Of a DNA stretch of 36,097 bases, positions 761 to 16,871 are shown in pieces. Where the stretch lies: NCBI GenBank assembly GCA_017436025.1, contig JAFSDX010000012.1:1-36097 (forward strand), given 5' to 3'. The position numbers were made by a program, and so were the translations under genes. Every line of letters starts with the position of its first letter. Positions within the stretch are counted from its first letter, which is position 1. The notes under the pieces were generated by a model. That model had not been told where the DNA came from. It made no database searches and saw nothing but the letters and a program-made list of their open reading frames with translations. This DNA is from Thermoguttaceae bacterium. Its GTDB lineage: Bacteria > Planctomycetota > Planctomycetia > Pirellulales > Thermoguttaceae.

Positions 761-792
761 CCTCGACGGCGAACGAAAACCGTCGAGGTTTT
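761..792 (+). terminator. Intrinsic terminator of the WbsX-like gene
   Basis: A perfect 9-bp stem, CCTCGACGG (761-769) with CCGTCGAGG (780-788), is followed at once by TTTT (789-792). The T tract is also the first unit of the octamer array that follows. Confidence 0.8.
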
Positions 793-1004
793 CTCGTTTT
801 CTCGTTTTCTCGTTTTCTCGTTTTCTCGTTTTCTCGGTTTCTCGGTTTCTCGGTTTCTCGGTTTCTCGTTTTCTCGGTTTCTCGGTTTCTCGGTTTCTCG
901 GTTTCTCGGTTTCTCGTTTTCTCGTTTTCTCGTTTTCTCGGTTTCTCGGTTTCTCGGTTTCTCGGTTTCTCGGTTTCTCGGTTTCTCGGTTTCTCGGTTT
1001 CTCG
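789..1004. repeat. Tandem octamer array, 27 x KTTTCTCG
   Basis: Read directly: 27 consecutive 8-bp units with no indels. Every unit is (T/G)TTTCTCG; ten have T and seventeen have G at the first position. The first six units are all TTTTCTCG, and T and G types are mixed afterwards. A degenerate edge (GTTCTTTC) follows at 1005. The array starts exactly in the T tract of the preceding terminator. Because 8 is not a multiple of 3, all three frames stay open as FSRFLVFS-like strings; these look like by-products. It lies in the intergenic space before the ABC exporter, so copy number could vary without damaging a protein. Confidence 0.95.
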
Positions 1005-1147: not shown

Positions 1148-3409
1148 ATGAAAAATTTTTGGCGAGCGCTTAAAGTAACGTTTAAGTATAAATGGAACAT
1201 TATCGGTATCGTTCTGTCGTCGCTCTGTCTCGCGCTTTGTTGGGGAGGGAACATCGCGACCGTTTATCCGCTCGTTCAGGTTTCCTTTCAAGGAGACACG
1301 GTTTCAAGCTGGCTTGAAAAAGAAGTTGTTAATCAAAAAGAGCGACTGGCGAAGTTGCGAGCCGAGCGCGACGCGATGAACGACGAAAGCGACGCCGCGC
1401 CAAACACGGCGGCTGACGCGCTGGAAAAATCGTCGCAAACGGAAAATGTGGAAAACTCGAGCGTCGAAACGGGGCAAATCGAGCGCGTTCCGTTCAATCC
1501 GCGTCGGGCGTCGCTTCTCGATTCGCAAATCGTCGAAGCGGAAAAGGCGCTCAAACGTTGCGAAACGGCGCTTCCTTACGCGCGCCGTTGGACGCCGAAC
1601 GATCCGTTTATAACGGTTGTCGCGTTGATGATATTTGTGATGATTGGAACGGCGGTGAAAGGGGGATGCACCTACGCGCACTCTCTTCTTTCAGCGCGAA
1701 TTGGGCAACTCGGCGCTTTTGAATTACGCGCGCTTTTCTTCCGCAAGTTGCTCGGATACGAAGTGAACCATTTTAGCCAACGCGGCGTTGCCGACGCGAC
1801 GAGTCGATTTACGTCCGATATGGGAGCGTTGACTAGCGGAATTGAATTGGTTTACGGAAAAACGATTCGCGAACCGTTAAAAATGCTCGTTTGCCTTGTC
1901 GGCGCGGCGTTGGTTAGTTGGCAACTGTTGCTTTTTACGTTCCTTTTTGTTCCGTTGGCGGCGGTTTCGATCCGTTGGTTGGCGAAGTCGCTCAAGCGCG
2001 TCGTTCGGAACGCGATGCTGGAAATGGCGCAACTTTACGGTCGGGTCGAGGAAACGTTTCGCGCCGTTCGCGTTGTTAAGTCTTTTAACCGCGAAGGTTA
2101 CGAGATGGCGAAGTTTCGCCGAACGAACAAACAGTATTTCAAGCGCGGAATGAAAACGGCGAAATACGGCGCGATGACGAGTCCGATTACGGAATGTTTA
2201 GGGATTATGATGCTTGTGCTGACGATTTTGGCCGGCGCGTATCTCGTCATTCACCAGCAAACGACGCTGTTCGGGATTCCTATGTCGTCGCGTCCGCTCG
2301 ATCTCGGCTCGTTGATTTTGTTTTACGGCTTTTTGATCGGCGCTTCCGACCCGGCGCGTCGTTTGTCCGATATTTTCGCCAACCTGCAAGGCGGGTGCGC
2401 CGCCGCCGACCGAGTTTTTGAAATTATCGATCGCGAACCGGCGATTAAGGATTGCGAAAAGCCGAAACGGTTGCAAAAATTTGAAAAATCGCTCGTTTTT
2501 GACGGCGTTTTTTACGAGTATCCGGTCGCCGAGGCTTGGGCTCCGGCGCCGCAACGAAAAAAGGTCAAGCCGCGCGACGCGATCAAGGCCGCCTGGAACG
2601 CTTGGAAGGAAAAAAGGAAGAGCGCCGGTAAAGACGTTGCGACCGTTAACGTCGACGCGGACGATAAAATCGGCGCAAACTCGCTGATTTCGGAAAAGGA
2701 ACGCGAAAATCGAACGGTTTTGAAAAACGTTTCGCTTGAAATTAAATACGGCGAAACGGTCGCGATCGTCGGTCGCAGCGGATGCGGGAAAAGCACGCTC
2801 TTGAGTCTTATTCCGCGTTTTACCGACCCGACGCAAGGACGCGTCCTCGTCGACGGAATACCGATGACGGAAATCAAAATCGCCGACGTTCGCGATCAAA
2901 TCGGCCTCGTCGCGCAAGACTCCGTCCTTTTCAACGACACCGTTTTTGAGAATATCCGTTACGGAAAACCGGGCGCGTCGCGAGAAGAGGCGATCGAAGC
3001 CGCGAAAAAGGCTTACGCCGACGAGTTCATCCGCGAAGAACTCGCCGACGGATACGACACGAACGTCGGCCCGGGCGGGGCGCTCCTCAGCGGCGGGCAA
3101 CGGCAACGCATCGCGTTGGCGCGAGCGATTTTGAAGAACCCGCGCATCCTTTTGCTCGACGAAGCGACGAGTCAAATCGACCTGCAGAGCGAGCGTTATA
3201 TCCACAAAGCGCTGAAAAATTACGTCGGTTCCCGCACGACGATTTTGGTAACGCATCGTTTGAGCGCGATCAAGTTGGCCGACCGCGTCGTCGTTATGCA
3301 AGACGGCGTCGCGCAGTTCGTCGGAACGCACGAAGAAGCGTTGAAAAATTCGCCGTTTTACGCGAATCTTTGGGCGACCGAGTCGGCCGACGACGATTTT
3401 GAGGACTGA
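1148..3409 (+). CDS. ABC exporter, fused permease and ATPase (MsbA-like)
   Basis: A half-transporter of 753 residues with membrane domain followed by ATPase, expected to pump a lipid, drug or peptide from the inner membrane as a dimer. The first transmembrane helix is near residues 17-45 and the membrane domain runs to about 410. The ATPase shows Walker A GRSGCGKST (542-550), signature LSGGQ (647-651), Walker B LLLDEA (D671, E672) and the switch His703. Two oddities: a charged, coiled-coil-like stretch of about 100 residues between TM1 and TM2, and an insertion of about 55 residues at the start of the ATPase before the VLKNVSL strand. I chose ATG 1148; an in-frame TTG at 1097 would add 17 residues but lacks a binding site. 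Upstream Shine-Dalgarno signal is weak for both. The substrate is unknown. Confidence 0.9.
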   Translation: MKNFWRALKVTFKYKWNIIGIVLSSLCLALCWGGNIATVYPLVQVSFQGDTVSSWLEKEVVNQKERLAKLRAERDAMNDESDAAPNTAADALEKSSQTENVENSSVETGQIERVPFNPRRASLLDSQIVEAEKALKRCETALPYARRWTPNDPFITVVALMIFVMIGTAVKGGCTYAHSLLSARIGQLGAFELRALFFRKLLGYEVNHFSQRGVADATSRFTSDMGALTSGIELVYGKTIREPLKMLVCLVGAALVSWQLLLFTFLFVPLAAVSIRWLAKSLKRVVRNAMLEMAQLYGRVEETFRAVRVVKSFNREGYEMAKFRRTNKQYFKRGMKTAKYGAMTSPITECLGIMMLVLTILAGAYLVIHQQTTLFGIPMSSRPLDLGSLILFYGFLIGASDPARRLSDIFANLQGGCAAADRVFEIIDREPAIKDCEKPKRLQKFEKSLVFDGVFYEYPVAEAWAPAPQRKKVKPRDAIKAAWNAWKEKRKSAGKDVATVNVDADDKIGANSLISEKERENRTVLKNVSLEIKYGETVAIVGRSGCGKSTLLSLIPRFTDPTQGRVLVDGIPMTEIKIADVRDQIGLVAQDSVLFNDTVFENIRYGKPGASREEAIEAAKKAYADEFIREELADGYDTNVGPGGALLSGGQRQRIALARAILKNPRILLLDEATSQIDLQSERYIHKALKNYVGSRTTILVTHRLSAIKLADRVVVMQDGVAQFVGTHEEALKNSPFYANLWATESADDDFED

Positions 3410-15586: not shown

Positions 15587-15701
15587 ATTTTTTGTCGAGC
15601 GGTTGCGTTTGAAGGTCGACGTGAATAACGGCGACGAATAATATTAAAGTGGCGCCGCCGGAAAAACAAACGTTAAACGCTTGGAAAAAACGGAGGTTCC
15701 G

Positions 15702-16871
15702 ATGAGCGACGACGGCGCGCCGCGCAAAGTGGCGCTGGAAGAAAATGGGAAAAAGAGGATTATTTCGCTTGCGGAACTCCGAAAGGCGGCGGCAAACGCT
15801 TCGATTTCTTCGGACGCGAAAGTTTGGATGGACGGTCGCGCCTATCCTTGGGCGGAGGCGAAAAAAATGTTGTCGCTCGCCGCCGCCGAGGACGCGAACG
15901 TTTCGCCGTCGAAAACGAACGGGCCGAACGCCGCCGTTTCGACGAGCGACGACGGCGCGCCGCGCAAGGTGGTGTTGGAAGAAAATGGGAAAAAGAGGAT
16001 TATTCCGCTCGAGGAACTCCGGAAGTCGGCGGTAAGCGCGTCGATTTCTCCGGACGCGAAAATTTGGATGGACGGTCGCGCCTATCCTTGGGCGGAGGCG
16101 AAAAAAATGTTGTCGCTCGCCGCCGCCGAGGACGCGAACGTTTCGCCGTCGAAAACGAACGGGCCGAACGTCGCCGTTCCTTGGCCGTCGCAAGCGATTG
16201 AAAACGCGAAAAAAAAGGCGAGCGTCGACGCGAAGAAACGGAAAACGCTCCTTTGGGGCGGCGTCGGAGCGAGCGCGTTTCTTTTGGTTCTTCTCGTCGC
16301 GTCGGCGTTGCTCGTTGTCGGGAGCGGCAAGAAAAAAGGAAGCGAGACGCGAGAAACGTCCCGAACGGAGCAAAACGCCGCCGAGGCGAATCGGGCGTCG
16401 GAAGTCGACGCGTCGATCGCAACCTCTGAAAAATCGGAAGACGGAGACGCCGGTTCGACCGACAAAGCGGGGAAAGATTCGGAAAACGGCCCTTCGGAAC
16501 AAACGTTAGGGGCGGAAACGTCGAACGAAACGGACAAGACGAACGAAGAGAATGGGAAAGCTCGGGAAGCCGAGGACGCCGGAGAGCAAAACTTTGCGCT
16601 CGACCTGTTTGAGCCTGAAACGACGGAGGGCGCGCCGAATTATCCCGGGCACGACGACGGCGAAACTGGAGAAATTTTTGGAAAGTCCGACGTCTCCGAG
16701 GAACCGTCGCTCGACTCTGAGTTCGCTTCGGAGGAAAACGTTTCAAGCGGCGCGTTCGAAACGAACGTCGAGGAGCCGCAAATCGAGTACGAAAGCGGAA
16801 TTGAGCGCGAAGAAATATGGCGAAATTTGGACGCGATGCAAAACCTGAAGGGACGAGCGTCGGAGGATTGA
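15702..16871 (+). CDS. Single-pass membrane protein with two near-identical 80-residue repeats (GYF_2/DUF4339-like)
   Basis: A 389-residue protein. Residues 2-81 and 82-161 are two copies of an 80-residue unit, each with KVxLEENGKKRII, a LxELRK helix and a closing motif WMDGRAYPWAEAKKM. The pattern (strand, Leu-rich helix, 'x-W-x-[DE]-G' then a Trp) resembles GYF_2/DUF4339 domains, which are peptide-binding or tethering modules; this is a tentative match. A positively charged stretch KKKASVDAKKRK precedes one transmembrane helix (about residues 184-206). The rest (about 180 residues) is acidic and disordered-looking, rich in Glu, Ser, Asn and Thr. The repeats probably face the cytoplasm. GGAGG at 15692-15696 decides ATG 15702. 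Function unknown. Confidence 0.75.
   Translation: MSDDGAPRKVALEENGKKRIISLAELRKAAANASISSDAKVWMDGRAYPWAEAKKMLSLAAAEDANVSPSKTNGPNAAVSTSDDGAPRKVVLEENGKKRIIPLEELRKSAVSASISPDAKIWMDGRAYPWAEAKKMLSLAAAEDANVSPSKTNGPNVAVPWPSQAIENAKKKASVDAKKRKTLLWGGVGASAFLLVLLVASALLVVGSGKKKGSETRETSRTEQNAAEANRASEVDASIATSEKSEDGDAGSTDKAGKDSENGPSEQTLGAETSNETDKTNEENGKAREAEDAGEQNFALDLFEPETTEGAPNYPGHDDGETGEIFGKSDVSEEPSLDSEFASEENVSSGAFETNVEEPQIEYESGIEREEIWRNLDAMQNLKGRASED
15705..16184 (+). repeat. 240-bp tandem duplication within the gene
   Basis: Two units at 15705-15944 and 15945-16184, period exactly 240 bp. The segment 15823-15930 is identical to 16063-16170 over 108 bp; the first halves differ at scattered sites. Confidence 0.95.

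Follow-up and report, generated by a model that had tools for sequence, protein, structure and literature searches.

A probable young slippage expansion of an octamer repeat upstream of an ABC exporter gene in a Thermoguttaceae-type genome

The window analysed here (36,097 nucleotides; contig C101 of G000, a Thermoguttaceae-type draft genome of 4.3 Mb in 281 contigs) carries a tandem KTTTCTCG array of 27 units on its forward strand, at positions 789-1004. With a probability of about 0.8, this array represents a long simple sequence repeat (LSSR) in intergenic DNA, a young and species-specific expansion by slippage from a short TTTCTCG-type seed, most likely near-neutral and variable in length. 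One genus relative of the window, G015, corresponds to the public entry 'Thermoguttaceae bacterium RGIG9010' (JAGBDD01) from water deer rectum. Since this relative is a rectal record, the window is attributed to a gut Planctomycete belonging to the same genus.

The array and its spacer

The sequence-only reading had reported a perfect 27-copy octamer array in which only the first base varies. This was confirmed by the exact unit count, 27.0, K being T in 10 units and G in 17, in the order T6 G4 T G5 T3 G8. The repeat as delimited by TRF (790-1007) includes a partial unit, GTT (1005-1007), which merges into the conserved box downstream. A two-unit pattern has 26 matches in the window versus 0.00 in shuffles, and the T and G variants of the first base are clumped, with 6 runs versus 13.6 expected (z -3.2). 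The RNA fold of the array is no better than that of shuffles (z 0.3), and no second array of at least three KTTTCTCG-type units was found in the 4.3 Mb genome. Elsewhere in the window, a tandem pair of 240-base units, 93% matching, lies within a long open frame (15696-16180).

The array sits in a non-coding spacer, with the terminator of a WbsX-like gene on one side and the conserved promoter region of an ABC exporter gene on the other, all on the forward strand. The upstream gene is represented by the 3' part of a member of the WbsX-like glycosyltransferase family (1-708; PF14307, Pfam E 1.9e-22), with a stop codon ending at 708. It is followed by an intrinsic terminator hairpin, GGAAACCTCGACGG..CCGTCGAGGTTTTC (756-793; predicted fold -23.1 kcal/mol, z -4.2), which is conserved in the alignment with the sister species G009, G015 and G017. 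The first unit of the array had been equated with the T tract of this terminator. The equation holds in part, as the unit does contribute to the tail, but TTTTC (789-793) is paired in the 3' arm of the predicted hairpin, so that the unit is part stem and part tail.

At its 3' end the array abuts a conserved block, TTCTTTCTTGCGTTTTTTTCTTAATCGTTAAAATTCC (1006-1042), which is almost identical in G009, G015 and G017. A putative -10 element of the exporter promoter, TATACT (1068-1073), is conserved in the same three species and lies about 60 bp downstream of the end of the array. A scan for consensus sigma-70 promoters gave no match and no consensus -35, and the promoter assignment therefore rests on conservation. 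The exporter gene (1148-3409) encodes the PF00664 and PF00005 domains. Its ATG at 1148 was set by position in the sister alignment, and its best NCBIfam model is MsbA, below the cut-off. A coding repeat was considered and rejected: the frames across the array are open, but the upstream gene has already ended at 708, the exporter does not begin until 1148, and the sister species are without the array.

The same spacer and a second locus in sister species

The exporter spacer was compared in four sister species, G009, G010, G015 and G017, whose exporter DNA is 85-89% identical. The spacers of G009, G010 and G017 contain neither the array nor a TTTCTCG pair. That of G015, also without the array, contains TTCTTTCTCGTTTCTCGTTTCTTTCTTGCG, in which two tandem TTTCTCG heptamers, reading TTTCTCGTTTCTCG, adjoin a conserved box. 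This pair is situated at the opposite end of the spacer from the terminator, beside the conserved TTTCTTGCG box. Because the exporter spacers of all four sisters are without the array, it would have arisen, or been kept, in the window's species only.

Octamer arrays of the same family are found in two sisters at a second locus, the gap that separates a glutamate dehydrogenase-family gene from a short-chain dehydrogenase gene. G015 (contig C73) carries 13 units there (T8 G5) and G017 (contig C2) about 16, mostly ACTTCTCG but ending on one side in three ATTTCTCG. The matching flanking sequences identify these two arrays as orthologous, and their unit spellings differ. At the same place G009 has CTTCCTCGGCTTCTCG, which resembles a two-unit seed, and neither the window's species nor G010 has an array. 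The G015 array is located 138 bp beyond a terminator-like hairpin, and a TATAAT follows about 120 bp downstream of it. Its purine strand is the coding strand. Such expansion of one octamer family at two places in different species, with two sisters spelling the unit differently at one of them, is the mark of arrays that grow and turn over locally. The proposal that the window's array grew from the terminator's T tract is doubtful, given the promoter-side position of the G015 heptamer pair and this distance of 138 bp at the second locus. On the evidence of these alignments, the seed was probably situated at the end of the spacer next to the promoter and not in the terminator tail.

The occurrence of the octamer family at two loci within the genus might instead reflect a dispersed functional or mobile family of arrays, such as protein-binding sites scattered over several loci in the manner of the cyanobacterial STRR. 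A 9-mer, (CCAACYCAA)n, is indeed present on at least seven G000 contigs. However, no genome carries the octamer array at both loci, its orientation relative to the downstream gene is opposite at the two, and the seed-like sequences found at the loci point to an origin in place. The STRR-like arrangement, one unit at many loci per genome, is shown by the 9-mer, which is unrelated to the octamer; the octamer forms one array in G000. Dispersal is thus a very unlikely explanation of the exporter array.

It has also been suggested, in the sequence-only reading, that the array could affect termination or make exporter expression phase-variable. As a contingency locus, it would tune or switch the exporter through changes in copy number upstream of the promoter. 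The idea seems legitimate by analogy with promoter repeats in other bacteria: in Mycobacterium tuberculosis, promoter repeat number is reported to be phase-variable, including upstream of the efflux gene efpA (PMC12817950), and in both cases a tandem array stands upstream of a transporter gene, here about 60 bp upstream of a conserved -10 element. In M. tuberculosis, however, the promoter element itself is repeated, in units of 54-58 bp, and variation has been observed (PMC12817950), whereas the promoter in the window is not part of the array. Positive evidence for either effect was not found: the array leaves the hairpin intact and the spacing of the downstream promoter unchanged, it is missing from this promoter in four sister species, and the sisters' octamer array is near an unrelated gene pair. 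A contingency locus would be expected to alter a reading frame or the promoter spacing and, as part of a core phasome, to stay with one gene throughout a group of relatives. The octamer unit is outside the reading frame of either flanking gene, the array is non-coding and upstream of the putative promoter, whose spacing is conserved in the sisters, and none of G009, G010, G015 and G017 has kept an array at the exporter. Such control of the exporter therefore appears unlikely. A wider proposal, that the 8-14-base arrays peculiar to this species, whose units vary by single bases, together form a genome-wide pool of hypervariable expression-tuning sites, the exporter array being one member, some lying between terminators and promoters and some in dispersed families such as (CCAACYCAA)n, is quite improbable.

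Repeat arrays across the genome and in known systems

In 712 kb sampled from G000, 19 arrays were found (units of 8-14 bases, at least 2.9 exact copies) versus 0 in Markov controls, and 11 of them were called intergenic. The samples from sister species (118-241 kb) contained 0 to 2 arrays and are too small to prove a real difference from G000; those with second-locus arrays were partly picked for those arrays, and coding and intergenic labels were left out for the G017 sample (called coding fraction 0.33). TTTCTCG is present in 99 copies in the intergenic DNA of G000, versus a mean of 21, and ranks 305th of 7092 heptamers. The abundance of this word in intergenic DNA would thus supply seeds.

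Eight of the 19 arrays are no more than 250 bp away from the end of a contig, versus 3.4% of bases (p about 1e-7), and assembly thus tends to break at such arrays. In a draft of 281 contigs, this failing of the assembler lends some weight to the view that the exporter array is an artefact, or has a wrong copy number, of short-read assembly. Against this, repeated substrings in and around the array reach 66 bases at most, so that a graph with k >66 can resolve it and a short-read assembler run at larger k can put the variants in order, and arrays of this octamer family are also present in two independent genomes, G015 and G017. An artefact is extremely improbable; the existence of the array is safe and its unit order credible, the exact number of 27 being less certain.

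Arrays of other units were also recorded. The (CCAACYCAA)n family is found on G000 contigs C19, C22, C47 (L149:20-218), C108, C126, C204 and C276, at least four of these seven carrying the array at a contig end, and at one place each in G010 and G003. Arrays of another 9-mer, (CAACGCAAA)n, are present in G000 (C25:33-115, L127; C157:10212) and in G003 (C311:5979-6185), the unit being common to two species of the genus. An 11-mer, ACGAATCGGAA, is repeated about 27 times at the very start of contig C5 of G017 (L162:1-302), and was absent from the 22 relatives searched, which did not include G017. On G000 contig C20 (L097:1483-1563), nine exact copies of GGCGAACGG, called coding, form an in-frame three-residue repeat. 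As regards the octamer itself, a unit private to the genus is ruled out by NTTTCTCG arrays of 3 to 10 units in unrelated bacteria, which indicate that it has no private meaning in the genus. A viral origin was likewise rejected, viral contigs having given one 3-unit match, unrelated.

The array is a new example within the known class of LSSRs, repeats of 5-11 nt units in bacterial genomes described by Mrazek and colleagues, for which slippage is the proposed origin (cited in PMC4679880 and PMC11868660). As outlined there, LSSRs share with the exporter array a pure head-to-tail arrangement, here of 8-nt units, an intergenic position, a unit length that is not a multiple of three and an explanation by slippage. 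They differ in that heptamers are said to dominate most genomes, whereas the unit is of 8 nt here and of 9-10 nt elsewhere in the genome. Units of the array, at no more than 11 nt, are perfect, head-to-tail and repeated beyond chance (27 x 8 nt; 26 versus 0.00). Rapid turnover between close relatives, typical of the class if not strictly defining, is also seen: four sisters are without the array at the exporter locus, and at the second locus one unit has given way to another between G015 and G017.

Units of 6-9 nt are said to have been reported rarely (PMC4692102). The GGGAATC heptamers of Xanthomonas and the GGGGA(C/T)T heptamers of Nostoc are likewise intergenic and vary in length and sequence between close relatives, and the Nostoc unit also has one variable base; they differ from the octamer, which occupies one locus and is not G-rich, in occurring at many loci per genome and in forming G-quadruplexes (PMC4692102). 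The tandem repeats of Borgs are comparable in being fast-evolving, of independent origins and sometimes missing at the same place in a close relative, with partial repeats in their flanks as possible seeds. They are, however, pervasive in archaeal extrachromosomal elements, with units of 18-21 nt in the aligned Borg region (PMC9879509).

Origin and significance

Recent slippage, already put forward in the sequence-only reading, is well supported by the absence of the array from the same spacer in four sisters, by the clumping of its variants, by short seeds at both loci and by the expansion of the same octamer family at the second locus in two sisters. Replication slippage at a short TTTCTCG-type seed in the terminator-promoter spacer probably produced the tandem array, with unequal recombination between units perhaps contributing to its growth. 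The T and G variants of the first base would have arisen in single units and then been copied in blocks. With a terminator upstream and a promoter downstream, the spacer would tolerate changes in length, and the array is most likely selectively near-neutral and length-variable. The comparisons show the arrays, the seed-like sequences and the array-free spacers; slippage as the mechanism, the direction in which the change ran, neutrality and variability at the present day are what we infer.

Two observations run counter to slippage alone. The arrays of both loci are situated between a terminator and a promoter, a possible hint of regulation, although bacterial spacers between co-directional genes often run from terminator to promoter. 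Moreover, finding the same octamer family at two unlinked loci is more than one might expect if the slippage events were fully independent; the heptamer is, however, common. Independent recent expansions of common intergenic words remain the best reading.

Together, the two loci in five related species offer a comparative snapshot of the birth of a long-unit microsatellite in bacteria, in absent, seed-like, expanded and re-spelled states. As arrays coincide with draft-genome breaks in this group, their number and lengths are probably underestimated. Should the length of the exporter array prove variable, it could be used as a strain-typing marker for this uncultured gut lineage.
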